Assembly: GCF_036365825.1 (NCBI RefSeq)
Contig: NZ_CP142674.1
Coordinates: 1-64,000 of the forward strand
Length of the DNA: 64,000 nucleotides
Source of the DNA: Qipengyuania sp. HL-TH1
GTDB lineage: Bacteria > Pseudomonadota > Alphaproteobacteria > Sphingomonadales > Sphingomonadaceae
Direction: 5' to 3'
Part shown: in pieces, positions 10,031-43,065 of the stretch
Position numbering within the stretch: position 1 is the first letter of the stretch
Layout: each line of letters opens with the position of its first letter
Made by a program: the position numbers and the translations under genes
The notes under the pieces: model-generated
Database searches by the model: none
Seen by the model: the letters and a program-made list of their open reading frames with translations, nothing else
What the model was told of the DNA's origin: nothing

Positions 10031-10870
10031 ATGCTTACCGCTCTCAAGCCTACCAAGGAAACCATTGATCTCGTCGCCGGCTTGAAGGGGCGGTGGCACG
10101 GTTCGTATGCCATGTGCCGCTGTCCCGCCCATGCCGACGAAAAGGCGTCGCTTTCCATCCGGCAGGGTAATCGCGGACTACTGGTCCATTGCTTCGCCGG
10201 GTGTCGCAGTGAAGACGTTCTTCGCGAACTCTCACGAACCAGACCGGTCTTCAATTCGCCAACGCCCGAGTATCGAACGGGTGCATCGACGCAGAATGCG
10301 CGGCGCATCTGGGACCAGGCTACCGAAATCAAAGGAACGCTTGCAGAAGCCTATCTGCGATCACGCAACCTTCCTCAGTCCTTGGGAGATTTGCGCTATC
10401 ACGCACGATGCCCGTTCGGCCGCAAGCCGAATGCCGTGTTCAGGCCGGCCCTGATTGTGGCCGTGCGGGAAGGGACGAAGATCAAGGCCATCCAGCGCAT
10501 CGCGCTCGGTCCGGGAGGACTGTCACATAAGGGTAAATACATGCTCGGACGACCGGGCATGGCGGCCTGGTCGCCAATCATGAAGGGCACCACACTCGCT
10601 CTGGCGGAAAGCATGGAGGATGCCGCCGCCTATACGAAGCTGAAAGGCACGCCGTGCTGGAGCACGCTGGGGGCCGAGCGATTGCCTCTGGTCCGCATCC
10701 CGGACGGGGTGGCAACTCTCGTAATTGCCGAGGACAACAACCGGGCAGGAAGGCTGGCGGCGCTTGCAGCCGTCGCGGCGCACGAGACTACGGATCGCCG
10801 CGTTCTTCGCGATCCGCCTCCACGAGCCGCCGCCGACTGGGCGGAGGTCAACGAAAACGCCGGCACATAG
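10031..10870 (+). CDS. Toprim-domain primase-like protein
   Basis: This 279-aa protein combines an N-terminal zinc-ribbon of the CHC2 type (CRCPAHADEKASLSI then HCFAGC, about residues 33-65) with a C-terminal toprim domain (LALAESMEDAAAY near 190, TLVIAEDNN near 230). This pairing is that of plasmid and phage DNA primases or primase-like proteins with DUF7146. It probably helps replicate or establish the plasmid as single-stranded DNA. The toprim Glu and Asp-x-Asp are present in variant form (AEDNN). It precedes the methylase-helicase gene across a G-rich tract. Confidence 0.75.
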   Translation: MLTALKPTKETIDLVAGLKGRWHGSYAMCRCPAHADEKASLSIRQGNRGLLVHCFAGCRSEDVLRELSRTRPVFNSPTPEYRTGASTQNARRIWDQATEIKGTLAEAYLRSRNLPQSLGDLRYHARCPFGRKPNAVFRPALIVAVREGTKIKAIQRIALGPGGLSHKGKYMLGRPGMAAWSPIMKGTTLALAESMEDAAAYTKLKGTPCWSTLGAERLPLVRIPDGVATLVIAEDNNRAGRLAALAAVAAHETTDRRVLRDPPPRAAADWAEVNENAGT

Positions 10871-10884
10871 GGCTTCGAAGAACA

Positions 10885-10901
10885 GAGGAGGGGGGGGGAG
10901 G
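10885..10901 (+). repeat. G-rich element, copy 2
   Basis: A polypurine tract with a run of nine G follows the toprim gene. The next gene has its own Shine-Dalgarno (AGGAG at 10922) about 20 bp further on, so the tract itself is not that gene's ribosome site. Confidence 0.6.
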
Positions 10902-10932
10902 ATTGGTTGCGGATCAGCATCAGGAGCAGACC

Positions 10933-13900
10933 GTGACCGACCTATTCGACATTTCCGAACAGCGCCTCAAAGGCGCTATCGAAACCGTGGCTGCTGACAT
11001 CGGCAATGCCCGTCTTTCGAAAAAGAAGCTCTTCGAGACGATGGAAGGGCTGCACGGCTGCACATCGGCAAACGGGACATGGACCCAGCGCGATGCTTAC
11101 GACCTACTGGAAGCAGGACTTGCACTTCACCTGACCCGACTCGGGCCCGTTGAGCGCACCGACATTTCCTCGATCTCCGACCTGGTCGACTCCCTGCCGA
11201 CCCAGACCGTCAGAAGCGAGGATCAAATCCGCTTCCAGCAGTTTTCGACCCCGGCAGACCTTGCAGCCTTGGCGATGATCGCCGCGCAGCCTCGGAGCGG
11301 GGATATCGTCCTCGAGCCGAGTGCCGGCCACGGCTCTCTCGTCAGCATGTTGCCGAGCGTCGAGGAACTGCACCTCAACGAGCTCGATCTGCGCCGGCGC
11401 GAGAAGCTGAAACTCCTTTTCGCTGGTGCGACCATCACCGGCTTCGACGGCGCCATGCTGACCTCGCTGGCCGCGCCCGAACTTCGGCCGACGCTGATCC
11501 TCATGAACCCGCCGTTCTCGCGCTCGCAGGGCAGGGGCGTCGATGAATACGCCGCTGTCCGCCATCTGCGGGCCGCGCTCTCGAAGCTCAGTCCCGGCGG
11601 CCGGGTCGTGGCGATCATGCCCGACTGGTTCACCACCAGCGCCAAGATGATCCGGATCTACGAAGAGACCTTTACGAACTGCACCGTACAGACCTCCGCC
11701 AGGCTCGCGAAATGCTATCACAAGCAGGGCACCAGCGTGGCCGTGCGCTTGATGGTGATCGACAAGACACCAGGGAACTCGAAACCATCGATCATCGCGC
11801 GCGATACCGTCCGCGAACTTGCAGACTGTCTTCCCATCGTGAAGCGAGCGACGGCTCTCTCCGAGCGCACGTCGGTGCCCCCGCAGCCCAAGCCGAAGGC
11901 GACCAGCCTCTTCAAGTCGATGCGCGCCAAGCCGCGGACGACGCCGCGGGTCGAACGCAAGATCTCGGTCCGCGAGATCGTCCCCGTCGAATATGGCAAG
12001 CTCGAGGCGCCGCGCGCGCTCGGTACGCAATCAGGGGTCTACGTTCCCTATCGGCCCAGTCGCATCGATATCGAAGGCTCGCGCGAACACCCGACGCCTC
12101 TGGTCGAGAGCGTCGCGATGGGTTCGATCCCGGCCCCGGTGCCGGACTATGTCCCGCGTCTGCACGATCGCATCCTGACAGACGCGCAGCTCTCCGAGGC
12201 ACAGCTCGAGACGATCATCTATGCCGGCAATGCCTGGACGCAATTCCTCCCCGGCAAGTTCACCCCGTCCGATGAAGGCGTAGGGCTTTCGCTGTCCGAA
12301 GACGGCAGAGCCTATCGCAAGGGCTATTTCCTAGGCGATGGCACCGGGGCGGGGAAGGGGCGGCAGGTTGCTGCTTGCATCCTCGACAACTGGCTCGCGG
12401 GCCGTCGTCAGGCAATCTGGGTCTCCAAGAACGAAAGCCTTCTCGAAGACGCCCGACGCGACTGGTCCGCGATCGGCGGGCTTCCGGCGGACATCCAACC
12501 GCTTTCGAGCTGGAAGATCGATGACGAACTTCCTTTTCGCGACGGCATCGTTTTCGTCACCTACCCGACGCTGCGCAGCCAGCGTCAGGACGCAACCCGC
12601 CTGAAGCAACTCCTCGACTGGGCAGGCACCGACTTCGAAGGCGTCATCGCATTCGACGAGAGCCATGAAATGGGCGGCGTCGCCGGCGGGGAGGGCGCCC
12701 GCGGTGCCAAGGCAGGGTCGCTGCAGGGTATCGCAGGTGTTCTCCTTCAGAACCACCTCCCGGATGCCCGCGTCCTTTACGCCTCTGCCACCGGAGCATC
12801 GGACGTGAACAATCTGGCCTATGCCGTTCGTCTCGGCCTGTGGGGTCCCGGCACTGCCTTCTCCAACCGCGAGGACTTCATCAGCCAGATCCGTTCGGGC
12901 GGAATAGCCGCGATGGAACTCGTCTCGCGCGATCTGAAGGCTTTGGGTCTTTATCAGGCTCGCGCACTCAGCTTCGCCGGTGTCGAATACGAAGTGCTGA
13001 AGCACGATCTGACAGACCAGCAAATCGGCATCTACGACACCTACGCTGACGCCTGGGCGATCATCCATCAGAACATGGAAGAAGCATTGGCACTTACCAA
13101 CGTCGTCGACGACCTCGATGGCGATACCCTGAACAGCGGCGCGAAGGCTGCGGCGCGCTCGCGCTTCGAAGGTGCCAAGCAGCGCTTCTTCAACCAGGTG
13201 CTGCTTTCAATGAAGCTGCCGACCTTGATCGCGGCGATCAACGACCATGTCGACCAGGACAAGGCCATCGTCGTCCAGCTCGTGTCTACCGCAGAAAGCA
13301 TTCTCGATCGCCGCCTCGATAGCCTATCGCCAGAAGAGCGGGCCGAACTCGACCTTGACCTGAGTCCGCGCGAAAACGTCATCGACTATCTCGAGCGCGC
13401 ATTCCCCACACAGCAGATGCAGGTCTTCGTCGACGACACTGGCGAGGAACGCTCGATGCCGATGTTCGACGACGAGGGACGCCCGGTCCACAATGCCGCG
13501 ACGATCGAGAAAAAGCAGCGTCTCATCGAGCACCTCTGCGCACTGCCACCCATCAAGCCCGCGCTCGACGGTATCATCGAACATTATGGCACCGAGAAGG
13601 TCGCCGAAGTGACAGGACGGACGAAGCGACTCATCACCCAAGGAGACGGCAGCCAGAAGCTCGAAACACGCTCGGCGCGCACGAACCAATCCGAAACCGA
13701 TCACTTCATGGATGGGCGCAAGAACATCCTCGTGTTCAGCGACGCCGGCGGCACGGGTCGTTCGTATCACGCCAGCCTCGATGCCAAAAATCAGCGCCAG
13801 CGCGTTCACTTCCTCCTGGAGCCGGGCTGGCGCGCCGACCGCGCGATTCAGGGGCTGGGCCGAACGCACCGGACGCACCAGGCCGAAACGCCGCTCTTTC

Positions 13901-15153
13901 GTCCGGTCACCACGAACTGCAAGGGCGAGCTGCGCTTTACCAGCACAATCGCTCGCCGGCTCGACAGTCTGGGCGCCCTGACCCGGGGCCAGCGCCAGAC
14001 GGGCGGGCAGAACCTGTTCGATCCCGCGGACAACCTCGAAAGCGAATACGCCAAGGCGGCGCTCGTGACATGGTTCGGACTGCTGGCCGAGGGCAAGCTA
14101 TCCAGCGCGACGCTGCTCGACTTCCAGAAGCGGAGCGGTCTCAAGATCGCGTCGGCCGACGGAATACTGGAAGAGGACCTTCCTCCGATCCAGCGCTGGC
14201 TCAACCGCATACTGGCATTGCCGATCGCCATGCAGAACGCGATCTTCGATGAGTTCCTAGCTCTGGTGGAAGCCCGCGTATCCGCGGCCCGGGATGCCGG
14301 CACGCTGGATGTCGGGGTCGAGACCATCCAGGTCGAAAGCGCCAGCGTCGCCGAGGATATCGTGCTCCGAACCGACGAACGAACCGGAGCAACCTCGCAC
14401 CTGCTGCGCATCGATCTGACAACCCGGTATCAGCCGACCACGCTGGAAAGGGTGCTCGAGCGGCGTGAATGGTCCGATGGCTGCATCCTCATGCGTAACA
14501 CGAAGAGCGACAAGGCCGCGCTCTGCGAACCATCGCGCCACTTCATGACCGAGAAGGGCGAGCTCATCCAGCGCGTGATCCTTCACCGGCCTTTGCGGCG
14601 GGAATACCACCAACTGCGAGACCTCGAAGAATCCGCGTGGGTAGAATGCGCCGAACCCCGCTTCGCGAAGCTGTGGGAGGCTGAATCCGAAGACAGCGCA
14701 TCCCGCCTGCACACCGAGACGGTCCATCTCGCCACGGGCCTGCTGCTACCCATCTGGTCGAACCTTCCGCGCGATTATCTCGAAGTGAACCGGATCGTGG
14801 ATCTCGAAGGTCGCAGCTGGCTCGGACGCATCGTCTACGACACCGACGTCGCCGACGTGCTGAAAGCCTTCGGCGTGAACTCGAGCGTGAAGCTCACGGA
14901 CGAAGCGGTCGTCAAAGCACTGCGTGAGAACCGCAGCATCACGATCGAGCAGCCGTTCGGCGCGGTGCTGAAGCGCTCTCGCGTCGCTGGCGATCTTCGC
15001 ATCGAAATAGCTGGAGCGCCTGCCGACCAGATCGAATGGCTGAAGAGCATCGGCTGCTTCACCGAGATCATCGCCTACCGCACCAGGGTTTTCGTCCCGG
15101 CGGACAATCCGGAGCCCGTCGTCAAGTCGCTGCTCGGTTTCCAGAATTCCTGA
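10933..15153 (+). CDS. Strawberry-notch-like helicase fused to a DNA methyltransferase
   Basis: This ~1406-aa protein joins two domains. Residues ~90-300 form an N6-adenine methyltransferase (EPSAGHGS motif I, LMNPPFS catalytic motif near 190-196). Residues ~430-1100 form a superfamily 2 helicase of the strawberry-notch type, with Walker A GDGTGAGKGRQ near 468, DESHEM near 574 and the Sbno C-terminal region with GRTHRTHQ. Such proteins are frequent on alphaproteobacterial conjugative elements next to ParB-like, ArdC and DUF736 genes; a role in plasmid establishment or protection from restriction is inferred. I chose GTG 10933, six bases after AGGAG; the frame is open back to 10654 but that part overlaps the toprim gene. 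Confidence 0.88.
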   Translation: MTDLFDISEQRLKGAIETVAADIGNARLSKKKLFETMEGLHGCTSANGTWTQRDAYDLLEAGLALHLTRLGPVERTDISSISDLVDSLPTQTVRSEDQIRFQQFSTPADLAALAMIAAQPRSGDIVLEPSAGHGSLVSMLPSVEELHLNELDLRRREKLKLLFAGATITGFDGAMLTSLAAPELRPTLILMNPPFSRSQGRGVDEYAAVRHLRAALSKLSPGGRVVAIMPDWFTTSAKMIRIYEETFTNCTVQTSARLAKCYHKQGTSVAVRLMVIDKTPGNSKPSIIARDTVRELADCLPIVKRATALSERTSVPPQPKPKATSLFKSMRAKPRTTPRVERKISVREIVPVEYGKLEAPRALGTQSGVYVPYRPSRIDIEGSREHPTPLVESVAMGSIPAPVPDYVPRLHDRILTDAQLSEAQLETIIYAGNAWTQFLPGKFTPSDEGVGLSLSEDGRAYRKGYFLGDGTGAGKGRQVAACILDNWLAGRRQAIWVSKNESLLEDARRDWSAIGGLPADIQPLSSWKIDDELPFRDGIVFVTYPTLRSQRQDATRLKQLLDWAGTDFEGVIAFDESHEMGGVAGGEGARGAKAGSLQGIAGVLLQNHLPDARVLYASATGASDVNNLAYAVRLGLWGPGTAFSNREDFISQIRSGGIAAMELVSRDLKALGLYQARALSFAGVEYEVLKHDLTDQQIGIYDTYADAWAIIHQNMEEALALTNVVDDLDGDTLNSGAKAAARSRFEGAKQRFFNQVLLSMKLPTLIAAINDHVDQDKAIVVQLVSTAESILDRRLDSLSPEERAELDLDLSPRENVIDYLERAFPTQQMQVFVDDTGEERSMPMFDDEGRPVHNAATIEKKQRLIEHLCALPPIKPALDGIIEHYGTEKVAEVTGRTKRLITQGDGSQKLETRSARTNQSETDHFMDGRKNILVFSDAGGTGRSYHASLDAKNQRQRVHFLLEPGWRADRAIQGLGRTHRTHQAETPLFRPVTTNCKGELRFTSTIARRLDSLGALTRGQRQTGGQNLFDPADNLESEYAKAALVTWFGLLAEGKLSSATLLDFQKRSGLKIASADGILEEDLPPIQRWLNRILALPIAMQNAIFDEFLALVEARVSAARDAGTLDVGVETIQVESASVAEDIVLRTDERTGATSHLLRIDLTTRYQPTTLERVLERREWSDGCILMRNTKSDKAALCEPSRHFMTEKGELIQRVILHRPLRREYHQLRDLEESAWVECAEPRFAKLWEAESEDSASRLHTETVHLATGLLLPIWSNLPRDYLEVNRIVDLEGRSWLGRIVYDTDVADVLKAFGVNSSVKLTDEAVVKALRENRSITIEQPFGAVLKRSRVAGDLRIEIAGAPADQIEWLKSIGCFTEIIAYRTRVFVPADNPEPVVKSLLGFQNS

Positions 15154-15246: not shown

Positions 15247-17322
15247 ATGCAACTCATCCAGCTCAGCAAGCTCGACCAGAGCGAGGACAATGTCTGCAAG
15301 CGACCCAATCCGGAGTTCGAGGAACGCCTGTCCTTCGATATCGAGGCCCGCGGCGTCCTGCAGAACCTCATCGTCGCAAAAGCAAAGAAGCGCGGTCGCT
15401 TCGAGGTGATCGGAGGCGGCAAGCGGATGCGCGCCATGCACCGGATCGTCGAACGCGGCGCGATGGACGCAGATTTCGAGGTTCCCTGCCTCGTAATAGA
15501 TCGCCGCGAACACAATGCGAGCGAAGTGTCGCTGGCCGAGAACTTCCAGCGCCTGCAGATGACGCCGGCCGAGGAATGCCAGGCCTTCCAGCATTTCATC
15601 AAGGAAGACGGCGACACCGCCGCGGTCGCAAAGCGCTTCGGTCTCACACAGCGTTTCGTCGACGGCCGCCTCCGCCTCGCCAACCTGGCCGGACCGATCT
15701 TCGAAGCGCTGGCCGCCGGCGATATCACGCTCGACCTCGCCAAGGCCTATGCCGCAACCGATCAGCATGAGGTGCAGCTGCGCGTCTTCGAGCAGATGCG
15801 TCATGCGTGGAACCCCAGCGCGGACGCAATCCGCCGGATGATCGCCGATGGCTCGCTGCGCGGCAACGATCCCATCGCGCTTCTCGTCGGCGAGGACGCC
15901 TATGTGGCTGCGGGTGGCAAGATCGAGCGCGACCTCTTCAGCGAAGCGGCCGACGATCGCTGGATCGATGTCGAAATCGCCCACCAGCTTGCCGCCACCA
16001 AGATGGAAGCCGAAGCCGAACGGCTCGCTGCAGAAACGGGGCTCGCCTGGATCAACCCCGTGGCGGCCACCAATTCGTGGAGCGCTCGCAGCGAACTCGG
16101 CGTCAACCCGGTTCGCCTCCCACCGGCACCACTCTCCGAGGAAGCCCGCACGCGGATCGACGAAATCGACGCGCGCATGGACGACATCAACGCCATATTC
16201 GAGGACGAAAGCGCCCAAGATGAGGACGGGGTGGATCTCGACAAGCTCGAGATCGAATACGACACGCTCTCGAACGAACGCGAAGATCTCAACAACCCCG
16301 TGCGCGAGCTGCCCGAGGAATGGCGCGGCGAGGCCGGTCGCTTCCTCATCCTCACCAACAAGGGCGAGATGGTGCTGGAGAGCGACTACTACAGCGAGAA
16401 ACGGCTCAGCTTCGAGCAGGACGAGGACGGCAACGTCACCGCCACCAGCGAGGACGCGCCGACCCGCGGCGGCACGAGCAGTCAGGCCGGACGCCCGTCG
16501 ACTCCCGAAGCAGTCGCGCCGGGCGGTGAGAAGCCGATCAGCGCGAAGCTGTTCGACGAACTGTCCGTCCAACGCCGGAACATCCTCGCCGCCTCGCTCC
16601 TCGGCGACCCGGGTCTCGCGCTCGACTACGCCATCTTCGCCTTGTGCGACGATCGCAGCTACGAGAGCAAGGGCACCTCGCTGAAGGCCGGCAAGCCGCA
16701 GGACCCCGCCTACGGCGATATCCCGCAGTCGGCGGCCGAAGGGATCCTCGCCGCGGCCGAAGATGCGCTCGACAAGGCGTGGCATGAGCCCAAGGAGGTC
16801 GCCCAGCGATTCCTCGCCTTCCGCGAACTCGACGACGAGGCCAAGGCCGCATGGCTCTCCTACGTGGTCGCCGTCTCGCTGGAAGCGAAGAAGGGCTACA
16901 ATTCGGAGTATCATCCGATCCACTCGGTCCTCGGCAGCATTCTCGACGTCGACGTCGCCGCAATGTGGCGCCCGACTTCGGAGAACCTCTTCGACCGCAT
17001 CAACAAGACGTCCTGCCTCGCGGCCCTCACCGATATCGGCGGCTCCGAACTGGCGGCACGGTACGCGGCATCCAAGAAAGCCGATCTTTCCAAGACGTGC
17101 GAGAAACTCTTCTCCGGCGACGCGATCGTCGAAGAGGATGTCAAGGAACGCGCTCTCGCGTGGTTGCCCGAAGCGATGAAGTTCGAGATCTCCACCGGTG
17201 ATCTCGATCAAGGCGAGGCGCCGATCGAGCCGGACGGCGATGACGACCTCGCCGATACGGACGACGGCAAAACTGCCGAGGAACCCGAAGACGTCGACGA
17301 AGAAGCGGCGGTGGACGCCTGA
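15247..17322 (+). CDS. ParB/Spo0J-like nuclease-domain protein
   Basis: This 691-aa protein has an N-terminal ParB-like domain (IGGGKRMRAMHRI, then AENFQRLQMTPAEECQAF) and a helix-turn-helix (DTAAVAKRFGLTQRFVDGRLRL). The long C-terminal region (~250-690) is acidic and ends in a run of Asp and Glu. It is not the partition protein, which is encoded at 3798. Large ParB-like proteins of this kind occur in plasmid leading regions beside ArdC and helicase genes; a role in establishment rather than segregation is inferred. SD AGGAG sits close before the ATG. An open frame on the opposite strand is even longer but has no recognisable domain. Confidence 0.85.
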   Translation: MQLIQLSKLDQSEDNVCKRPNPEFEERLSFDIEARGVLQNLIVAKAKKRGRFEVIGGGKRMRAMHRIVERGAMDADFEVPCLVIDRREHNASEVSLAENFQRLQMTPAEECQAFQHFIKEDGDTAAVAKRFGLTQRFVDGRLRLANLAGPIFEALAAGDITLDLAKAYAATDQHEVQLRVFEQMRHAWNPSADAIRRMIADGSLRGNDPIALLVGEDAYVAAGGKIERDLFSEAADDRWIDVEIAHQLAATKMEAEAERLAAETGLAWINPVAATNSWSARSELGVNPVRLPPAPLSEEARTRIDEIDARMDDINAIFEDESAQDEDGVDLDKLEIEYDTLSNEREDLNNPVRELPEEWRGEAGRFLILTNKGEMVLESDYYSEKRLSFEQDEDGNVTATSEDAPTRGGTSSQAGRPSTPEAVAPGGEKPISAKLFDELSVQRRNILAASLLGDPGLALDYAIFALCDDRSYESKGTSLKAGKPQDPAYGDIPQSAAEGILAAAEDALDKAWHEPKEVAQRFLAFRELDDEAKAAWLSYVVAVSLEAKKGYNSEYHPIHSVLGSILDVDVAAMWRPTSENLFDRINKTSCLAALTDIGGSELAARYAASKKADLSKTCEKLFSGDAIVEEDVKERALAWLPEAMKFEISTGDLDQGEAPIEPDGDDDLADTDDGKTAEEPEDVDEEAAVDA

Positions 17323-17402: not shown

Positions 17403-18341
17403 ATGAAACGCTCCCCCAAGCGCGACGTCGCGCAGGACATCACGAACCTCATCATCAGAAAGATCGAGGAGGGCACGCTGCCCTGGCGGCGCCCATGGAA
17501 GAAGACAGGCGCCGGCGGTGCGCCGCTGCGCGCCAACGGCGTGCCATACACCGGCATCAACCGCCTGTACCTGTGGGCCGTTGCGGACGCGATGGGATAT
17601 CAATCGCGCTATTGGATGACATATCGGCAAGCTCAGGAGCTCGGCGGGCAGGTTCGCCGCGGCGAGAGCGCCGAACCGAGCATCTATTTCAACACGACCA
17701 AGAAAACCGAGGTCGATCGCTCCACCGGCGAGGAATCCTCGCGCACGATCCGCTTCATGCGCGCCTATTCAGTGTTCAACGTCTCGCAAATCGACGGGTT
17801 GCCGGTCCATTTCTACCCCGACCCCGTACCCGAAGCGCCGCCGACCCCGTCGCAGAAGGCGGCGGCGATCGCGGCGTTCTTCGCGCCCATTCCGAGCGAG
17901 GTTCGCTATGGCGGTGACCGGGCGTTCTATTCTCCGGGCGGCGACTTCATTCAGATGCCGCACCGCCACAGCTTCGTGAACGAGGACGGCCTCGCCGCAA
18001 CCCTCGCTCACGAAACCGGACACTGGACGGGACATCCCAACAGGCTCGCGCGCACGTTCGGTAAGCGCTTCGGCGACAAGGGCTATGCGTTCGAGGAACT
18101 CGTAGCCGAGCAGATCTCGGCACGGATCTGCTACGAACTCGGGCTTCCGGCCGATCTCCACGAAAGTCACGCCAGCTATATCGGCCATTGGCTCGACATC
18201 CTGAAGTCGGACAAGAGCGCGATCATCACCGCCGCCGCGAAGGCCGACCAGGCCTTCTCCTTTCTTGCCGAATTCTCAGGCTACGACAGCGAAGCAGAGG
18301 AGGCGGGCCATGAGGCGGCTGCACTTCAGGCTTACGCTTGA
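17403..18341 (+). CDS. ardC: ArdC-family antirestriction protein
   Basis: This 312-aa protein has the ArdC layout: an N-terminal single-stranded DNA-binding domain (DITNLIIRKIEEGTLPWRRPW, about residues 11-130) and a C-terminal zincin-like metallopeptidase domain with HETGHWTGH (~203-211) and a downstream Glu (FEELVAEQISA). ArdC proteins protect incoming plasmid DNA from restriction during conjugation. The gene follows a terminator and so probably has its own promoter. Its 3' end overlaps the next small gene by 32 bp. The position in a block reading toward oriT fits early expression in the recipient. Confidence 0.9.
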   Translation: MKRSPKRDVAQDITNLIIRKIEEGTLPWRRPWKKTGAGGAPLRANGVPYTGINRLYLWAVADAMGYQSRYWMTYRQAQELGGQVRRGESAEPSIYFNTTKKTEVDRSTGEESSRTIRFMRAYSVFNVSQIDGLPVHFYPDPVPEAPPTPSQKAAAIAAFFAPIPSEVRYGGDRAFYSPGGDFIQMPHRHSFVNEDGLAATLAHETGHWTGHPNRLARTFGKRFGDKGYAFEELVAEQISARICYELGLPADLHESHASYIGHWLDILKSDKSAIITAAAKADQAFSFLAEFSGYDSEAEEAGHEAAALQAYA

Positions 18342-23860: not shown

Positions 23861-23881
23861 TACGACATCATGGAGACAATC

Positions 23882-35987: not shown

Positions 35988-36439
35988 ATGAGGCGTACTA
36001 CAACCACAGTGCCCGGCTTTTCACTCGAAGCGGTTGGGCGTCGCCTTCGTGACGCACGCAAAGCAGCGGGTTTGACACAAGAAGAATTCGCCGAAGCATC
36101 GGGATTCAACAAATCTTCGGTTATAGCCTGGGAAAGTGGAAGAAATTCCCCCCTGCGAAGATGTTTGCGTGCTTGCGGCTCGTCTGTAACATATCCCCCG
36201 AATGGGTGCTTTGCGGACCCGGCCCTAAGCCACTCAAAGACATTACTCCTACGCAACGAGATCGAACTGCACGCGCCGAAGCGCGTGTGCGAGACCTGGC
36301 TCAGTCCCATGGATTAGAGCTCTCACAGGAAGGCATTGACGACCTCACACTCTTAGTCATCAACGAGACCGAAGATAACGAAGAGCAGATCTACCAGAAG
36401 ATGGTCCCCATTATGCAAGCCGTCGCCAAGGCGGCGTGA
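35988..36439 (+). pseudogene. XRE-family regulator, frameshifted at a C6 tract
   Basis: The first frame encodes a classic XRE helix-turn-helix (RRLRDARKAAGLTQEEFAEA, then KSSVIAWESGR, residues ~16-52). It leaves frame at the C6 tract 36148-36153. The continuation lies in another frame (KMFACLRLVCNISPEWVLCGPG), which is the usual continuation of this fold, and ends at 36439. One extra C would restore a 150-aa protein. Both halves look conserved, so this may be a sequencing undercall, slippage or a fresh mutation. The intact product would repress nearby genes. Confidence 0.7.
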
Positions 36440-36456: not shown

Positions 36457-36590
36457 CCGCCTCCCGCCCTGCGGACGGGATCGCGCTCTATTGCGCTAAA
36501 CTCCTTGCGGCCCTGGCTTCGCGAGGGCGCGCTGCGTCGCCAAGCTCCACCGAGCCCCTGACGGGTCTCGGCCCATTCGGGTGACGATCG
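36457..36590 (+). repeat. Dispersed leader repeat, type 1 copy A
   Basis: A ~134-bp element shared with 37497-37631 and, in part, 42525-42634. Shared blocks include CTCTATTGCGCTA, CCAAGCTCCACCGAGCC and TTCGGGTGACGATCG. Stem CCGAG/CTCGG (36550-36571) is preserved in all copies with compensating changes inside. It precedes a 57-aa gene. Confidence 0.8.
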
Positions 36591-36765
36591 CATGGCGAGA
36601 GTAAGGGGCCTTTCCACCAGAAGTCCCATTATGCCATGCGGGTCACGCTATGCGTCGAGGATCCTGCGGCCCGCTATCGCGGCGCCGCTATGGCGGCGTC
36701 CCTGACGCGCGTGCTGCCGCATGTCGGGCCTTCGGGGTCAATCATGACACCCAAGGAGGCTTATC

Positions 36766-36939
36766 ATGTTCAGCTGCACCACCATCGATTCCGCAATCAG
36801 CGGCGAGGCGAATGGATGCGAAAGCGATCAGCACATCGTCGCGATCGGAGATCGCTTCCAGGTCGTCGACGAATTCGACCTGACCGAGTGGCAAGAGAGC
36901 CGCGTCGTCGAGACGGTCTATTTCGACGATCCGGTGTGA
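36766..36939 (+). CDS. Small acidic hypothetical protein
   Basis: This 57-aa protein (MFSCTTIDSAISGEANGCES) has a strong AAGGAGG before the ATG and a clear terminator right after the stop, so it is very likely a real single-gene transcript. It is acidic and contains IVAIGDRFQVVDEFDLTEW. No family is recognised. It lies behind type 1 leader copy A, in the block reading toward oriT; small acidic proteins there can be anti-defence proteins, but that is only a guess. Confidence 0.65.
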   Translation: MFSCTTIDSAISGEANGCESDQHIVAIGDRFQVVDEFDLTEWQESRVVETVYFDDPV

Positions 36940-36979: not shown

Positions 36980-37459
36980 TTAGCCCCAAGGATCCTCGGA
37001 GAGCTTCCTCAAATCAATCATAAAACCGTCTGGCGACGGAAGTAGATCCCTGCGATCCTTTTCGCTGACACGAGGGTTTTCCGGATCGTTCGGCCGATCG
37101 CCCGGCTTGCCACGCGGACGAATGTACATCTCTCTGACCCAAAGATCGGTACCCACCGCTTCGAACCGGACATAGGCGACATGGCTGCAGCGCTTCTTCG
37201 CCAACGAACGGTTTGTAATCCTATCGGCCTGGGTCGATTTGACCTCGATGTTTTCCGCACCGAATTCGAGATCGTACTGTTCGACGCGATGGCCTGCATG
37301 AGTGGCGCGATATGCTTTCGCGACCAAGTGCTCGCCCAATGCTCCAAGCCATTGGCCGTTCAAAGTCGGTTTTTTCCCGTTTCTGTCAGGGTCCTCCAAT
37401 TCGTCGAGCGCGTCGGCGAGACCTTCCTTGATGGTTTGCGTAGCGTGTTTCTGAGTCAT
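36980..37459 (-). CDS. Predicted PD-(D/E)XK nuclease-like protein
   Basis: This 159-aa protein contains the core of a restriction-endonuclease-like fold: LGALGEHLVAKAY (helix with Glu), then DLEFGAENIEVKST, where Asp, Glu and Lys fit D-(x)n-E-x-K. It resembles small DUF6998-type proteins. It is on the minus strand, convergent with the 36766 gene across the terminator. Nuclease activity is inferred from motif only. As a plasmid gene it might process DNA or attack competing elements. Confidence 0.6.
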   Translation of the reverse strand: MTQKHATQTIKEGLADALDELEDPDRNGKKPTLNGQWLGALGEHLVAKAYRATHAGHRVEQYDLEFGAENIEVKSTQADRITNRSLAKKRCSHVAYVRFEAVGTDLWVREMYIRPRGKPGDRPNDPENPRVSEKDRRDLLPSPDGFMIDLRKLSEDPWG

Positions 37460-37496: not shown

Positions 37497-37631
37497 CCGC
37501 CTCCCGTCCTTCGGCCGGGACCGGGCTCTATTGCGCTAAGGCTCCTTGCGGCCCTGGCTTCGCTAGGGCTCGCTGCGTCGCCAAGCTCCACCGAGCCCCT
37601 AACGGGTCTCGGCCCATTCGGGTGACGATCG
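37497..37631 (+). repeat. Dispersed leader repeat, type 1 copy B
   Basis: Closely matches copy A, with stem CCGAG/CTCGG at 37591-37612 and hairpin CCCTGGC/GCTAGGG near 37553. It begins the 768-bp gene-free stretch before the DUF2493 gene. Confidence 0.8.
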
Positions 37632-38013
37632 CCTGGCGGGATAACCGCGTACCGCGCTATCGCGCTGCGGCCTGAAGAGCGGGGCTGTCTGCATCGGCTC
37701 GACCTTCGGCCGACGAGATAATGCCCGCCGCCTACCCAGCAGATTCAGGACATCCCATCAACGCCGCTCTGGCCTTCGGTCGGGCCTCCGCCTTTTTGAT
37801 TGGCCCCGCGGGCTCTCGGTCCCACCGCTCGCGTCCGGGCGGCCGCGCGAGGGCAACGACCCCTGGCGTTGCCGCGCGCGCGAGACGCGCCGGCCTGTCT
37901 TGCCGCGGCTCCTGCGGGAGCCCGATATTCTCGAAGGAAAGGGGAGGGGGAGGGTGTGTTTGATTGCATCCTCGTGTGATGGGGTCCGAAGGATACTTGC
38001 GGCAAGGATCCGG
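37632..38013 (+). other. Gene-free GC-rich leader segment
   Basis: No supported gene. Short palindromes such as CGCGCTATCGCGCTGCGG and CTTCGGCCGACG occur, and a G-rich tract lies at 37941-37954. It appears to belong to the long leader of the DUF2493 gene. Confidence 0.4.
37941..37954 (+). repeat. G-rich element, copy 9
   Basis: GGGGAGGGGGAGGG; 20 bp including flanks are identical to the tract before the ParB-like gene. It is exceptional in lying 270 bp from the next start. Confidence 0.65.
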
Positions 38014-38097
38014 TCAAGGATCCGCGGTTCCCCCAATTTTTTCCCGGCATTTGTCTGCTTTCAGCAGACGGGAAAAAATCGGCTCCCCCACGGCCCG
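38014..38097 (+). repeat. Dispersed leader repeat, type 2 copy 1
   Basis: Flanks TCAAGGATCCGCGGTTCCCC and GGCTCCCCCACGGCCCG are shared with 39399-39455. Between them lies a long hairpin (TTTTTTCCCG...CGGGAAAAAA enclosing GTCTGCT/AGCAGAC). The other copy has a different, shorter hairpin in the same place. Confidence 0.75.
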
Positions 38098-38227
38098 TAG
38101 GCGTTAACCGGGGTCCGGCCCTGACGTGCCGGCTTCCCGGTTAACGTCCCTGACCTCGCTTGTCCGCTGCGCACCATTGGACCCCGTCATCACGCGATGA
38201 CGCGATCAAAACCAATGGAGGCTACCA

Positions 38228-39232
38228 ATGCAGAAGTTCAACTCTTTCGCCGATCTCGCGAACGCCCGCATGGAACTGGCAGACACCCGTTCCGAAGTCA
38301 CCGCCGCCTACGACGGCGCTTTCCTCGAACAGAGCGACATGGCGAAGCTCAGCGTCGTCGACGAACCGATGGCGGCCGAAATGCCGGATCCCGACATGGC
38401 GCGGCGCGCCGTCGAGATGGCTATCGGAACGATCTTCGACGTCCTGAAGGACACCCGGATGGAGGAATTCGCCCAGCAGCTCGCCTGGGGGATGGTCAAC
38501 TCCTTTCACATGACCGCCCGCCTGGCCGAGGGACGCGAGGACGATGCGGCGAAGAAGCTCGGCGAACTTGCCCGTCACTTCGATCCTTCCGAGATCTACG
38601 CCGTCGAGCTCGAAGAAACGCAGATGCTCGTCCAGACGCTGCAGGGATGCCGCGAAGCCCTGGAGGCGATGCGCGACCATGCAGCCGACGTCTACCGGGT
38701 CGAGACCGGACGTCCGTTCACGGCAACTCGCGGCTCGCAGGTGAGCAAGAACGGCGTAACCGCCTCGCAGATCCAGGCTCGCGACTTCCTGGCAGCACGC
38801 GCGAAGGACCGCAGGGCACAGTTCCAGCCCGAAGGTCCGCTCGTCGTCACCTCGGGCGGCATGAAGGAATGGTACGACTTCGAGATGATCTGGGACATCC
38901 TCGACGACATCAAGTCCCGCATCCCGAACATGGTTCTCGGAACGACCGGAATGCGCAAGGGCGTCGATGCAATGGCGAACGCATGGGCCCAGAAGAACGG
39001 CGTGCAGACGATCCTCTTCATGCCCGACGGGCGTCACGGCAACCGCGCTCCGTTCCTGCGCAACGAGAACATGGTCAAGCTCGGCCCGGTGGAAGCGATC
39101 GTCGGCGAAGGCTCCGGCATCCAAGCGAACCTCGCACAGCGGCTCCGTCAGGCTGGGGTGCCGGTTCACATCCGCCGCATTGCCGATCAGCGGCCGCAAA
39201 CGCAGCGGGTCGGCGCTTCCACCTTCGGGTGA
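38228..39232 (+). CDS. DUF2493 / SLOG-family protein
   Basis: This 334-aa protein has an unassigned helical N-terminal half (~1-190) and a C-terminal DUF2493 Rossmann-like domain of the SLOG superfamily: VVTSGGMKEWYDFEMIWDIL, then GTTGMRKGVDAMANAWAQ and GNRAPFLRNENMVKL. SLOG proteins bind or process nucleotide ligands, and some act in conflict systems; the substrate here is unknown. The gene has a very long leader (repeats type 1 and 2) and a strong terminator after it, so it is regulated alone. Confidence 0.75.
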   Translation: MQKFNSFADLANARMELADTRSEVTAAYDGAFLEQSDMAKLSVVDEPMAAEMPDPDMARRAVEMAIGTIFDVLKDTRMEEFAQQLAWGMVNSFHMTARLAEGREDDAAKKLGELARHFDPSEIYAVELEETQMLVQTLQGCREALEAMRDHAADVYRVETGRPFTATRGSQVSKNGVTASQIQARDFLAARAKDRRAQFQPEGPLVVTSGGMKEWYDFEMIWDILDDIKSRIPNMVLGTTGMRKGVDAMANAWAQKNGVQTILFMPDGRHGNRAPFLRNENMVKLGPVEAIVGEGSGIQANLAQRLRQAGVPVHIRRIADQRPQTQRVGASTFG

Positions 39233-39278: not shown

Positions 39279-39398
39279 CGTCTCGGCAGAACGGGCTCGG
39301 GGGGCATCGAGCCCCCGTCGCCCGTCTTGGCGCGTCACAGGACCGGGGAGGGCTCGTCTCGTCGATGTCCCAGTCTGTCACGGGCGCACTGGCGCGCC

Positions 39399-39455
39399 TC
39401 AAGGATCCGCGGTTCCCCCAATTTTGCTACGCAAAATCGGCTCCCCCACGGCCCG
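39399..39455 (+). repeat. Dispersed leader repeat, type 2 copy 2
   Basis: Same flanks as 38014-38097, but the hairpin is ATTTTGC TAC GCAAAAT. Different sequence with retained pairing suggests the structure matters. It precedes the small coiled-coil membrane protein. Confidence 0.75.
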
Positions 39456-39537
39456 CTTGCGCGGTCGCCTGCGGCGATCCTTGACCCGCTGGACGCCCGT
39501 GACCGGCGGGAACCACCATCAACACATGGAGGTTAAG

Positions 39538-39783
39538 ATGGGCGTCCAAATCACATTGTTCAAAGCGCTGAAAGAGGCTAAAGTCTCGGGCGAGAACGCA
39601 GAGAAGGTCGTCTCCGAACTGGAGGAGTACATTGCGATGAAAATCACCGAAGCCAATGCAGAGCTGATTGCCGAAGTAAAGTCGCTTCGGACCGATGTCG
39701 CCACCAATCGCTGGGTCCTCGGGCTCATCGGAGTCATCATCGCGATAGGCTCGGCCACGGGCGGCTATATAGCAGCGGTCTGA
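39538..39783 (+). CDS. Small coiled-coil protein with one membrane span
   Basis: This 81-aa protein has a helical, acidic N-terminal ~55 residues (ENAEKVVSELEEYIAMKIT) likely to form a coiled coil, then one transmembrane helix (WVLGLIGVIIAIGSATGGYI, ~59-78). This is the design of DUF1640/CCDC90-like small proteins. GGAGGTTAAG precedes the ATG and a terminator follows directly. Location in the inner membrane is likely; function is unknown. Confidence 0.7.
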   Translation: MGVQITLFKALKEAKVSGENAEKVVSELEEYIAMKITEANAELIAEVKSLRTDVATNRWVLGLIGVIIAIGSATGGYIAAV

Positions 39784-40010: not shown

Positions 40011-40554
40011 CGGTAGCCGCAGCCCACACATCACAGCTCGCGATCGCGTAGCACCAAGACGAACCGCAGTGCCACGGCCGCGGCGGTCCCTTGCTCGCTG
40101 GCGACCTTTCGGTCGCGTGCGCCACGCTCGGTCCGCCTTGGCCCCGCCGGCATGGCTGGCTCGCCCGGACGCCTTCGCGTCCGTAGGCATCGCGGCCATG
40201 CCTGTCCTGCGCTGACGGGTAGCTGGGAGCGGGCGACGACGCCCGCTTCCATATGGTCGACGTTCCGCCAGGCGCTGGCACTCACTCGCGTGCTGGCGGA
40301 CATGCGTCCGCCCTAGCAACGCTCGGTGTGCCGCGCGCACTTGCAGCAGTCCCTCCGGCTCGCTGACGAACATCCGTTCGTCCGCGCATCGCCGATGCTT
40401 TCCTGCTCGGAATCCGGCCCCATGCCGGGGCAGGCTTTGCGCCGCATCAATCCTCGACGGGATGCGCCGATGGACACCGCCTGCCTTCACCGAACAGGCC
40501 TCGCATCAAAGGGGAGGGGGAAGGGGAGAGACGAGTTCATCACAGGAGGCAGAG
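40011..40554 (+). other. 544-bp gene-free, hairpin-rich leader
   Basis: No supported gene. Many short stems with TTCG-type loops are visible, such as CGGACGCCTTCGCGTCCG near 40158 and GACCTTTCGGTC near 40100. It ends with a G-rich tract and AGGAGG before the 40555 gene. It resembles the ssb and DUF2493 leaders in style but not in sequence. Confidence 0.5.
40511..40528 (+). repeat. G-rich element, copy 10
   Basis: GGGGAGGGGGAAGGGGAG lies 27 bp before the next start, upstream of a separate AGGAGG. Confidence 0.65.
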
Positions 40555-41133
40555 ATGATCGTCACCTTCCGCATCAAGGACACACAGACCCAGCTTCATT
40601 CACGGCCCGCTGAAATCTCCGCGCTGGAGCTCGCCGCGCTGACGCGGCGGCTTCACTCTGGCAACGCCGCGCTCGACGTCGATCCCGGGGAATTCGGGGC
40701 AGCGCCCCTCAATTTCGAGATCAACGCCAATGCCCTCTCGATGGCCGCATTCACCGCCTGCTTCGACCATCGGACCGAAATCATCTCGATCGTCGAAGAG
40801 GCGCAGTTCCTCGGGCGGACGCTGCGCGTCCGGCACCTCGGGCGCCTCGCTCCGATAACGATCGAGGTCTCCGAACATATCGCCCTTGCGCGCGATCTCA
40901 TGATGGGCCCGGACCTTGCCGCGAAGGTACTCTTCGCCCTGGGACGCGACGACGCGGATGAAGGCGAGCTGACCCTCGAAAGCTTGCGATTGCTCCTTCA
41001 GGATCATCGCACCTACGACGCGTTCTGCGGCGCCAAGATCACCCCGATTTACGACAGTCTGGCGTACCTCGCCTTCACCGACTGCGGCGAACAGACCCCC
41101 ATACTGGAGTGGGCCCAGCGATCGACAACGTGA
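40555..41133 (+). CDS. Conserved hypothetical protein
   Basis: This 192-aa soluble protein starts at ATG 40555 behind AGGAGG. It contains LELAALTRRLHSGNAALDVDP and no recognised motif. It overlaps the next gene by 4 bp (GTGA) and forms a two-gene unit behind a long structured leader. Confidence 0.6.
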   Translation: MIVTFRIKDTQTQLHSRPAEISALELAALTRRLHSGNAALDVDPGEFGAAPLNFEINANALSMAAFTACFDHRTEIISIVEEAQFLGRTLRVRHLGRLAPITIEVSEHIALARDLMMGPDLAAKVLFALGRDDADEGELTLESLRLLLQDHRTYDAFCGAKITPIYDSLAYLAFTDCGEQTPILEWAQRSTT

Positions 41134-41498
41134 ACGCGATCGCCACGCCTCGGACACGCCTGAAGATGCGACGCCCCAACTGCGGTTCCGAAGCGATCTG
41201 CAAGGATGCCTGGGCCGCTTGGGACGAGAGCAACCAGCGCTGGGAGCTCGGCGGGGTCTACGACCATGAAACCTGCATCGAATGCGAGCACGAAGGCGAC
41301 GACCATTTCGACCGAATCGATCTCAGCACAGGCGCGATCGTCGGTTCCGAAATAGACGAAGGATTGCCCGGCAACTGCGTCTCGGGCGAGGGCCATAACA
41401 TGCAGCCGCACCCGGTCACCGGAGCGCCATACTGCAAGGCGTGCTGCCCGCCTGAAGAGCCATTCGCGAACCACGCAATCTCATCGACCGGCGACTAG
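41130..41498 (+). CDS. Small Cys-rich, probable zinc-binding protein
   Basis: This ~122-aa protein carries the pattern RPNCGSEAICKDAWAAWDE, then CIECEHEG and later CKACC. It matches a small zinc-ribbon-like family on mobile elements with the form CGSxxxxxDAxAxWD...CxxC. The GTG start overlaps the previous stop by 4 bp; an ATG at 41166 would trim 12 residues. Its first zinc ligand pair is reduced to one Cys. Function is unknown. Confidence 0.6.
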   Translation: MNAIATPRTRLKMRRPNCGSEAICKDAWAAWDESNQRWELGGVYDHETCIECEHEGDDHFDRIDLSTGAIVGSEIDEGLPGNCVSGEGHNMQPHPVTGAPYCKACCPPEEPFANHAISSTGD

Positions 41499-41522
41499 CC
41501 TCCCGCTGGATCGATGCATCGG

Positions 41523-41558
41523 AAAAGGGTGTCCGGCCATGAGCCGCGGCACCCTTTT
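41523..41558 (+). terminator. Probable terminator
   Basis: Arms AAAAGGGTG and CACCCTTTT enclose a GC-rich inner part shortly after the zinc-binding gene. Confidence 0.55.
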
Positions 41559-41692
41559 CTCATGCCCGATACTCGAAGCACTGGCGCATCACGGCAACGC
41601 CTCGAACGAGCAGTGCAGCAAGTGACTTCCGCCTCCCGCCGATGGCCCGTCCGCCACCATCGCCATGAGCACTCCGGCCATACGCGGGTCAA

Positions 41693-41753
41693 CCGAAAAT
41701 GGACCGACCGTGAAGCCGCTACGCGGCTTCCGCACCACTCGATCAATTTTCGG
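41693..41753 (+). other. Nested hairpin in the leader of a small gene
   Basis: CCGAAAAT pairs with ATTTTCGG, and inside lies a perfect GAAGCCGC TAC GCGGCTTC hairpin with the same TAC loop as leader repeat type 2 copy 2. It sits in a 344-bp gene-free stretch before the 41843 gene. Confidence 0.55.
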
Positions 41754-41842
41754 TTCCCCTCCGCTTCGCTCCGGTGACCCGCGCACCGCCGGAGCGCTGA
41801 TTCATGGCATGGCGGACGAGCCGCCAACGACAGGAGGCTACC

Positions 41843-42094
41843 ATGTGCTACACCACCGAAACATTCGAGGCTGACACCGCCACGATCCGCCAGATCGACA
41901 CCGACACGATCGCGCTCGACGAGAAGACACTGGAAGCGGAACGGCGCTCCTACCACTCCTTCTTCGACGTCCATGTGGTCCGCACCGAAGACGGCTACAT
42001 CCTCATCGAGGAAGGCGATTACGGCGAGCTTCCGATGCACCTCATCGACGACATCGTCTACACCGCCACCGGCAAAATGGACGACGAATACTGA
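41843..42094 (+). CDS. Small acidic hypothetical protein
   Basis: This 83-aa acidic protein (MCYTTETFEADTATIRQIDT) has AGGAGG before the ATG. A GC hairpin (GGGCGGCGC with GCGCCGCCC, 42101-42122) separates it from the convergent gene. Its size, acidity and position near oriT resemble small anti-defence proteins, but no homology is recognised. Confidence 0.6.
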   Translation: MCYTTETFEADTATIRQIDTDTIALDEKTLEAERRSYHSFFDVHVVRTEDGYILIEEGDYGELPMHLIDDIVYTATGKMDDEY

Positions 42095-42123
42095 CCCGAA
42101 CGGGCGGCGCTAAGGCGCCGCCC

Positions 42124-42369
42124 TCAGGACGCCTGCTTCTGGACCGCAGGCTCCATCTTTTCGAGCGCCTCGATCGCGCTCTTCGGCTTGACGCTGACGG
42201 CCAGTTCCAACAGTCTCACCGCACGCGCATGACCGACCTTGCGCACGAGCCTTGCCAGCTCCTTTTCGGCCTCTTCCTTTTCCATCTGCGCAAGCTTCCT
42301 CCGGCGCTCCGCAACGTCCTGTTCCGCAGCTTCGAGAGCCGCTCTTTCGCGCTCCACTTTCGATACCAT
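42124..42369 (-). CDS. Small coiled-coil protein
   Basis: This ~81-aa protein is almost entirely charged helix (VERERAALEAAEQDVAERRR) and likely forms a coiled coil. ATG 42369 has AAAGGA at good spacing; another Met lies two codons upstream. It is on the minus strand close to the predicted oriT, so a mobilization accessory role is possible. It resembles DUF6437-like proteins, an assignment I hold loosely. Confidence 0.55.
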   Translation of the reverse strand: MVSKVERERAALEAAEQDVAERRRKLAQMEKEEAEKELARLVRKVGHARAVRLLELAVSVKPKSAIEALEKMEPAVQKQAS

Positions 42370-42524
42370 TTCCATGTCCTTTCACGACGGATTTCATGCT
42401 TCGCTTGATGCAGCAACCGCCATGAATTTTCGAGCCGTTTTTTTGCTCGATGCTTTTGCGTTTTGCCGTGATGGAAGGAGGTCTGTTATTTGGGCCATCC
42501 TTCGCGGCCTCGGCCGCTACGGAC

Positions 42525-42634
42525 CGCGCTCTATTGCGCTAGGTTCCTCGCTGCCCTGGCTTCGCTAGGGCAGCTTCGTCACCAAGCTCCACCGAGCCTG
42601 GCTATGCCAGTCTCGGCCCTTCGGGTGACGATCG
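42525..42634 (+). repeat. Dispersed leader repeat, type 1 copy C
   Basis: Shares the blocks of copies A and B. Its central stem is CCGAG-CCTGGC-TAT-GCCAG-CTCGG, where A and B have CCC/GGG, so pairing is kept though bases differ. No gene follows directly; the next is the RHH gene beyond oriT. A perfect GTGGACC/GGTCCAC hairpin follows at 42637-42654. Confidence 0.75.
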
Positions 42635-42839
42635 ACGTGGACCTGAAGGTCCACTCTTGTCCACCCAGGAAGAAGCATTGCCACCGCAGCGTTATACACG
42701 CTCGGGGCTCTTGGCGGCACGATGGCCGGCACTCCCAGCTGGATAACCAGCTCCTCTCACGACTCCTCGAGACAAGCGACCGAGAAGAAGAACCGCCAAG
42801 TCCCTATTTTAGCACACCGAACACGGCTGCGCCGTAGGT

Positions 42840-43065
42840 CTTTTCGGATCGAAAGATGTTAGATAGCAATGAGTTAGAACGATTTACCGGCCCCGAAATA
42901 TATTTCGGATTTGGGGCGGGAAGCGGGGAAGCTCCAAATGTGCCGCTTTTTCAACCGCTTGGAGCCGCAATATATTTCGGGTGCGTCAGCGCTTCCCTTT
43001 CCGTTTCGGACGGCATATAAGGGGCTTGCGATAGAGAAACCATGCACAACTCGGAAAGAGTTTGC
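42840..43065 (+). other. Predicted origin of transfer (oriT) region
   Basis: This gene-free, relatively AT-rich region lies just before the RHH-coupling protein-relaxase genes, where oriT is found in R388. It holds a perfect 16-bp palindrome CCGAAATATATTTCGG (42893-42908) and a partial repeat AATATATTTCGG at 42969-42980. Both could bind the RHH protein. The nick site could not be identified from sequence alone. Confidence 0.55.

Follow-up and report, generated by a model that had tools for sequence, protein, structure and literature searches.

Two predicted compact folds of the transferred strand precede leading-region genes in a sphingomonad conjugative plasmid and may act as single-strand promoters

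The leading region of a conjugative plasmid in Qipengyuania sp. HL-TH1 raises the question of whether its genes could be expressed while the incoming plasmid is still a single strand, and which elements in their leaders might make this possible. The DNA analysed here (the window) covers the initial 64 kb of the 133,762-base contig C1 of a 3.3 Mb genome, labelled G000, and its positions 40400-48000 match plasmid plsm_A of Qipengyuania sp. HL-TH1 (NZ_CP138852.1) at 99.7%. A preliminary description had proposed a single-strand-activated programme, noting that nearly all genes from about 10 to 42 kb lie on the plus strand and read toward a predicted origin of transfer (oriT), that the transfer genes read away, and that hairpins recur in the leaders. 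Codon-model gene calls bear out this arrangement: 35 of the 38 genes called in 10031-43065 are on the plus strand and three on the minus strand (20240-20737, 36980-37459 and 42124-42369), and the TrwB and TrwC/MobF genes at 43349-49070 do point away. We found two leader motifs, called motif 1 and motif 2, whose variation points to folding on the transferred strand (T-strand), and we propose that they probably turn on the leading genes while the plasmid is still single-stranded, through presumed transcription from single-stranded DNA.

An alignment of 11 regions preceding the coupling-protein gene contains one common block, altered in pNL1 (L016; L-numbers denote the loci compared). The block, GCACACCGAACaCGGC...GCCG, consists of a short inverted repeat and, behind it on the minus strand, 5'-GTTCGGTGT-GC-3', which we take to resemble the nick (nic) sites of F and R388. 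Because of this resemblance we place nic between positions 42813 and 42814 of the minus strand; the T-strand would then be the minus strand, running left through the leading region. With nic predicted there, the polarity assumed in the preliminary description stands, and its oriT near 42.9 kb gives way to 42813/42814.

Motifs 1 and 2 each occur twice in leaders of the window (Table 1). On the T-strand, the consensus of motif 1 reads GGGAAACC-stem-GTGGTGCGG-hairpin-ACACGG-stem-GGTTG, and that of motif 2 reads GGGGGAGCCGATTTT-stem-AAAATTGGGGG, enclosed by further stems. The hairpin leaders listed earlier, at 36457-36590, 37497-37631, 38014-38097 and 39399-39455, are all present and are repeats, and motif 1 is a leader motif that had been overlooked. 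Covariance models were built from T-strand alignments, R1 for motif 2 (from 37 of the 43 stretches listed) and R2 for motif 1 (from 22 of 23); R1 includes near-identical rows (L006, L007), so that its scores in the window are partly high by construction. At E values up to 1, neither model found a copy elsewhere on the plasmid outside the window. With its decisive pair left open (R with Y), the motif-2 pattern is present in 28 of 396 Sphingomonadales genomes, and motif 1 gave 98 matches in 57 of 199 family genomes; a class-wide search of 142 genomes with the motif-1 model, a weak one in which at most 26 candidates were scored per genome, was positive in G000 alone. The motif-1 model also matched a motif-2 copy in L014 weakly (20.4 bits, E 0.048), and the two motifs may be distant kin. 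A candidate pseudoknot in motif 1 (CACC/GGTG) was noticed by eye only. The strand tally of the motif-1 regular expression, 34 versus 7, includes unrelated sites (L016:27848, L047, L060, L061, L064 and L076); these, like overlapping or duplicate matches (L051:1508, L094:4785 and L063), were dropped before the energy, placement, promoter and element-helix counts given below.

Which strand folds can be read from the mismatches that it tolerates: a leader that folds as mRNA can accept G-U in coding-strand letters, and a fold of the T-strand can accept G-T on the minus strand, which appears as A-C on the coding strand. In the decisive pair of motif 2, the coding strand has A-C or G-C in every one of the 50 matches listed and never A-T or G-T; counted over 49 distinct copies, 41 have A with C and eight have G with C. 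Across 800 cells of the motif-2 alignment, in T-strand letters, there are 669 Watson-Crick pairs, 90 G-T, 4 A-C and 37 others, where within-column shuffling leads one to expect 84.1 G-T and 15.3 A-C; none of 400 shuffles had so few A-C. The corresponding counts for motif 1 are 160 Watson-Crick pairs, 40 G-T, 2 A-C and 18 others, with 13.7 A-C expected and, again, no shuffle of 400 as low as observed. Because these counts used RNAalifold structures derived from the T-strand, the coding strand was folded as well. For motif 2 (37 copies), the consensus fold has -26.97 kcal/mol and 22 pairs on the T-strand versus -7.68 kcal/mol and 13 pairs on the coding strand; for motif 1 (22 copies), the values are -8.58 kcal/mol and 10 pairs versus -0.36 kcal/mol and 11 pairs. 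Within the coding-strand fold of motif 2, where 96.5% of cells are standard pairs, G-T is absent (8.0 expected) and A-C occurs six times (10.0 expected), and within that of motif 1 both are roughly halved (G-T 11 with 19.4 expected, A-C 10 with 20.2 expected). A strand-neutral tally of the variable apical stem of motif 2, over 42 distinct sequences, gave 43 half-pairs of the T-strand type versus 6 of the coding-strand type, where re-paired arms, which reflect composition alone, give about 2:1 of A-C over G-T.

The leaders had also been described as covarying, and motif 2 does covary. Its covariation score is 0.400 versus 0.122 after shuffling, cells in which both sides change number 124 versus 48.3, and pairing holds in 94.9% of cells and drops to 39-58% when the arms are slid. 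Four of the five measures were as high in none of 500 shuffles; the fifth, the number of pairs with change on both sides, was 10 versus 9.7 and was reached by 361 of the 500. Helix tallies over whole leaders or elements were set aside as too noisy, the cobalamin control having 37 G-T and 52 A-C at a threshold of 16. Conservation of structure on the transcript strand, the mark of an mRNA leader, was not found for motifs 1 and 2, and the comparisons support selection of both to fold on the transferred strand and not as mRNA.

Fold energies agree in direction. Under DNA parameters the T-strand fold has the lower energy in all 23 motif-1 copies and all 44 motif-2 copies, while cobalamin riboswitches of the same group, used as a control, go the opposite way (15 versus 1 of 19) and chromosomal upstream pieces divide 20 versus 14 of 37. 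Expressed as z scores against dinucleotide shuffles, the T-strand is favoured for motif 2 by 39 versus 2 of 44 (DNA parameters) and for motif 1 by 14 versus 5 of 23 (DNA) or 16 versus 3 (RNA); the plus strand is favoured for the riboswitches by 14 versus 2 (RNA), more weakly by 8 versus 5 (DNA), and the chromosomal pieces are even at 13 versus 14 (RNA) and 14 versus 13 (DNA). The two motif-2 copies of the window have DNA fold z scores of -6.75 on the minus and -5.02 on the plus strand (38012-38158), and of -3.25 and -1.64 (39390-39490).

The elements also lie a short distance before genes. Measured from the end of the conserved core, motif 1 is followed by a plus-strand gene in all 23 copies, with the start codon 96-128 nucleotides (nt) away in 22, and 17 of the 23 proteins are SSB-like in their first residues, judged by eye. 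Motif 2 precedes a plus-strand gene in 43 of 49 copies, at 74-204 nt (median 118); one other copy lies before a minus-strand gene, and five stand at the very edge of the retrieved sequence. A TrwC relaxase is found within 40 kb on the same contig for 49 of 98 motif-1 and 37 of 50 motif-2 matches, at a median distance of 5.6 and 5.4 kb respectively, and every one of these copies (49/49 and 37/37) has the predicted strand and lies to the leading side of the relaxase. Among the 199 genomes, motif 1 and TrwC tend to be present together (40 with both, 17 with the motif alone, 24 with TrwC alone, 118 with neither; p 1.2e-12). For 49 motif-1 and 13 motif-2 matches there is no TrwC within 40 kb; in five of six motif-1 regions of this kind the element stands directly before an SSB gene called by Pfam, and in the sixth, L158, the gene calls contain nothing that follows the element closely. 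The YAcAr gene follows motif 2 in plasmids of the window's type and motif 1 in L154, and the site syntenic to gene 41843 has motif 1 in some plasmids and motif 2 in others. Genes for SSB and YAcAr thus bear such elements across different mobile elements. Comparison among copies supports four features, namely a conserved fold with compensatory changes, selection on the T-strand, a position before start codons, and a fixed strand and side relative to the relaxase.

Some copies lie outside the plasmid type of the window. On chromosome C2 of G000, motif 1 stands directly before another ssb at 2390164-2395913 (L090) and 3110846-3110956 (L091), and L090 has its own TrwC relaxase. L154 and L155, which belong to another plasmid or contig type, carry two motif-1 copies separated by about 2.1 kb, one ahead of ssb and the other ahead of a second gene, which in L154 encodes a YAcAr protein; L154 also has ArdC- and ParB-like protein starts, recognised by eye, and no TrwC within 40 kb.

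We think it rather probable that motifs 1 and 2 are single-stranded DNA cis-elements on the incoming T-strand, which act as single-strand promoters for early genes. The T-strand would enter the recipient 5' end first, and each element would fold. The folded element would then be read as a single-strand promoter, from which the host RNA polymerase would transcribe the T-strand toward nic, and Ssb and other establishment proteins (YAcAr and small proteins of unknown function) would be made before a complementary strand exists. Once the DNA became duplex, the fold would be lost and the elements would fall silent. Besides nic itself, we infer folding in vivo, recognition by RNA polymerase and the transient, early character of expression.

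Several observations weigh against this interpretation. The copies of each motif are related, and counts over them are not independent. Nearly all elements precede plus-strand genes, which makes T-strand and gene direction inseparable here. In motif 1, the T-strand G-T count also lies under its shuffle mean (40 versus 48.6), and the single-sequence z scores of the two window copies are -4.31 on the T-strand versus -4.35 on the plus strand, and -4.63 versus -5.74; because these copies alone show no T-strand preference, the motif-1 signal sits in the comparison between copies. When the entire plasmid was scanned and composition was corrected for linearly, leading intergenic DNA did not show a T-strand excess overall (mean residual 0.05 over 157 scanning windows, none below -4 and 3.2% above +4). 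No -35/-10 pair was found above chance in motif 1 or 2 elements, in a scan of low power that did not single out Frpo, the single-strand promoter of F, either: at a score of 9 of 12 on the T-strand there were hits in 0 of 23 motif-1 and 0 of 44 motif-2 copies, and Frpo itself reaches only 8. A promoter scan at scores of at least 9 found 13 of 205 in the chromosome versus 6.2 expected, and 5 of 171 for leading genes versus 10.8 expected, which again shows little power.

A third motif adds to these reservations. Motif 3 is a long direct repeat with conserved GCTCCACCGAG...CTCGG...ACGATCG, of which the preliminary description had overlooked the copy at 42498-42640; this oriT-side copy is also present in L006, L007 and L008. 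Its half-pairs are even (36 versus 36). The T-strand fold is the more stable in 14 versus 2 of 16 copies with DNA parameters and in 9 versus 6 with RNA parameters, and the dinucleotide-shuffle z favours the T-strand by 11 versus 3 (DNA) but stands at 5 versus 8 (RNA). Motif 3 passes the strand tests uncleanly, and its strand preference is ambiguous. The single-strand-activated programme as first proposed is partly supported, by the predicted polarity, the gene content, the T-strand folding of motifs 1 and 2, their short distance to start codons and their leading-side position; a -35/-10 promoter above chance (in a low-power scan) and a clean strand signal in motif 3 did not emerge.

The closest known systems are Frpo1 and Frpo2 (ssi) of F, which likewise belong to a MOBF plasmid, lie in the leading region upstream of ssb, precede genes directed at oriT, for which the T-strand is the template (here by virtue of the predicted nic), and have the more stable fold on the T-strand. 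The F regions containing Frpo1 and Frpo2 give -119.1 versus -111.6 and -210.7 versus -203.7 kcal/mol for T-strand versus complement, a comparison of two sequences 89% alike that has no composition control and does not hold in every 160-nt stretch. Frpo-type promoters are documented for F, and homologous sequences for ColIb-P9, in PMC9849209 and PMC11541004; in the former, the -35 and -10 boxes of Frpo are described as lying within its stem. Frpo folds as one long imperfect hairpin; the motifs described here instead combine several helices in a core of about 65-110 nt, and no -35/-10 can be recognised in them. The leaders had been thought unlike any known element, and in line with this a blastn comparison of Frpo1 and Frpo2 with the window returned matches of just 18 and 31 nt (E 0.087 and 0.025), which is chance level. 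By this comparison motifs 1 and 2 are not homologous to Frpo, yet they are Frpo-like in anatomy. The Frpo' and Frpo* candidates of Samuel et al. 2024 (PMC11541004) are likewise proposed single-stranded DNA promoters before anti-defence and ssb genes of leading regions; they were sought through BLAST similarity to known Frpo and a -35/-10 consensus, by which the motifs described here would probably have been missed. The words "Sphingo" and "Alphaproteobacteria" are absent from the main text of that paper. Searches of open-access papers yielded nothing that joins Frpo with Alphaproteobacteria, or the leading region with conjugative plasmids of sphingomonads, an absence that is weak evidence.

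Of the alternative explanations, the main one is that the folded strand is RNA, with minus-strand antisense RNAs across the leaders repressing ssb and other leading genes in the donor. The wobble and covariation tests by themselves cannot separate a minus-strand RNA from minus-strand DNA, the elements are located where mRNA 5' ends may be, and FinP with the traJ leader, in the F locus, forms such a pair on a MOBF plasmid. Against it stand, first, the loops. The coding-strand heptamer GC-TNC-GC corresponds to GC-GNA-GC on the T-strand. Compared with its reverse complement, it is found 63 versus 12 times in 56 leaders, 151 versus 50 times in the intergenic DNA of leading regions (76 kb from 12 loci), 28 versus 23 times in chromosomal and 4 versus 8 times in other plasmid intergenic DNA; against its specificity, a weaker excess extends to leading coding DNA (222 versus 162). 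One such sequence, d(GCGAAGC), is described in PMC4686876 as a DNA mini-hairpin of extraordinary stability, and an enrichment of this triloop on the T-strand appears to favour folded DNA over a minus-strand RNA. Second, a promoter to the right of the elements that could drive an antisense RNA was found no more often than chance allows, at a score of at least 9 in 0 of 22 and 1 of 44 cases (0.3 and 0.6 expected; a low-power scan). Third, placement strictly tracks the leading region and the relaxase, which antisense control would not require. We regard antisense control as unlikely.

Next after it, and unlikely too, is a role in second-strand synthesis, in which the T-strand elements would load primase, PriA or a plasmid primase, or would exclude SSB, without starting any mRNA. 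In its favour are the T-strand-specific fold, a motif 3 copy about 170-315 nt from the predicted nic, and a toprim-domain protein that two relatives have, by annotation, where the leading region ends farthest from oriT; Frpo itself is called a promoter and primer site in the title of a Cell 1997 paper cited in PMC11541004. Priming sites would not, however, be expected to keep a short spacing to start codons, nor to precede YAcAr-family genes as motif 1 and as motif 2 in different plasmid types.

That the hairpins work in the transcript, as riboswitch, attenuator or protein-binding leader, we consider quite improbable. The elements do sit before start codons, and the ssb leader aligns weakly over its full length, on the plus strand, with the radC RNA (RF01754), at 19.5 bits against a cut-off of 40. 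But the coding-strand consensus folds are far weaker, the G-U expected in motif 2 is absent, and by DNA-parameter energies the minus strand is preferred in all 67 copies of the two motifs, opposite to the riboswitch control. Seven other motif-1 loci gave no radC match at E values up to 5, a search in which an equally weak match might go unlisted, and identity of the ssb leader with radC RNA was not borne out. At gathering cut-offs, an Rfam search of the window returned no match. The STAXI motif (RF01728) resembles the present elements in being structured, in recurring and in its proximity to ssb and antirestriction genes, and its authors (Weinberg 2010, PMC2864571) weighed a role as single-stranded DNA and preferred RNA; identity with STAXI was rejected, since the window and G000 contain no RF01728 match and nine copies of STAXI showed no preference for the minus strand.

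Least probable of all, and very unlikely, is that the elements are double-stranded inverted repeats (operators or cruciforms) whose strand bias is a by-product of mutation or composition: the leading plus strand is indeed rich in C and A, re-paired arms already yield the twofold excess of A-C, and the composition-corrected scan shows no general bias, but within-column shuffles that keep composition still leave the T-strand A-C depletion, and the dinucleotide-shuffle z still favours the T-strand for both motifs.

The coordinates of the elements and of the principal genes are collected in Table 1. Pfam supports the ssb, ArdC and ParB-like genes named in the preliminary description; the gene that it called a methylase-helicase is a helicase of the Strawberry-notch type, in which Pfam finds no methylase domain. 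Much of the leading-gene order is kept across twelve related plasmid regions, of which pNL1 keeps it only partially. Further Pfam contents of the leading region are DUF736 and, below the Pfam cut-off, a Phd/YefM-like protein.

Table 1. Coordinates of predicted elements and principal genes in the window.
Feature	Position	Strand	Evidence
Strawberry-notch type helicase	10903-15153	+	PF13872, PF13871
ParB-like protein	15247-17322	+	PF17762 above cut-off, PF02195 slightly below
ArdC antirestriction protein	17403-18341	+	PF08401 and PF18818
Motif 1 copy, ssb leader	34917-35026	-	cmsearch R2 89.9 bits, E 2e-17; visible in L006-L016 leader alignment
ssb of leading region	35089-35424	+	PF00436, E 3.1e-18
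Motif 3 copy, leader of gene 36766-36939	36457-36600		Direct repeat; mixed strand tests
Motif 3 copy, upstream of motif 2/DUF2493 leader	37497-37641		Direct repeat; 95% identity to 36501 copy over 100 nt
Motif 2 copy (core 38012-38103), YAcAr/DUF2493 leader	38012-38158	-	cmsearch R1 80.9 bits, E 4.9e-18
YAcAr (DUF2493, SLOG) protein	38228-39232	+	PF10686, E 5.2e-18
Motif 2 copy (core 39397-39461), leader of gene 39538-39783	39390-39490	-	cmsearch R1 71.4 bits, E 1.4e-15
Small protein after motif 2	39538-39783	+	Gene call; syntenic coding sequence in L005
Motif 1 copy, leader of gene 41843-42094	41681-41786	-	cmsearch R2 90.1 bits, E 1.8e-17
Small protein after motif 1	41843-42094	+	Gene call; syntenic coding sequence in L005-L008
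Motif 3 copy, about 170-315 nt from predicted nic	42498-42640		Direct repeat; DNA fold z -5.39 minus, -4.25 plus
Putative oriT core	42780-42840	-	Hairpin ACGGC-GCA-GCCGT; predicted nic 42813/42814, 5'-GTTCGGTGT^GC-3'; conservation in 11 regions
Small protein	43066-43356	+	Synteny with ribbon-helix-helix/CopG genes; no match in Pfam
TrwB-type coupling protein	43349-45745	+	PF10412, E 5.7e-146
TrwC/MobF relaxase	46044-49070	+	PF08751, E 4.9e-82

Other features of the neighbourhood were noted in passing. Two DUF736 genes in the middle of the leading region (29949-30443 and 32869-33363) encode proteins identical in their first 40 residues; in NZ_CP138852.1 the pair is one protein accession listed twice, and YT40 and FD7 have two DUF736 each. 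A helix-turn-helix gene at 35988-36439 occupies two different frames in the window and is a single 453-nt coding sequence in NZ_CP138852.1. A CBASS-type phospholipase effector (8939-9925; PADLOC E 1.1e-80) is encoded close to the replication gene, immediately to the left of the leading region. The block at 22137-29258 encodes DUF7007, PAPS-reductase (weakly BrxP/SspD/DndC-like), HerA/mad8-like, HATPase and SspD-like proteins and resembles a section of a defence or DNA-modification island within the leading region.

Single-strand promoters have been worked out experimentally for enterobacterial plasmids, namely F, with homologous sequences in ColIb-P9. More tentatively than for a promoter role as such, and with confidence a little short of even, we suggest that motifs 1 and 2 could be a second, independently evolved kind of single-stranded DNA promoter in conjugative plasmids and integrated elements of the Sphingomonadales: two compact folds, either of which can stand ahead of YAcAr-family genes, that use GNA mini-hairpins specific to DNA and lack a recognisable -35/-10 hairpin, and whose T-strand covariation would record gene control by single-stranded DNA. 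If this is true, the early use of incoming single-stranded DNA for gene expression has evolved repeatedly and escapes homology searches. The strand test, which asks which strand tolerates wobble and takes riboswitches as a control, could be used to seek such elements in any conjugative family, and could sort the "RNA" motifs of mobile elements into RNA and single-stranded DNA. The sphingomonad group is known for plasmid-borne degradation of pollutants, and the first role of leading-region genes would become testable there.

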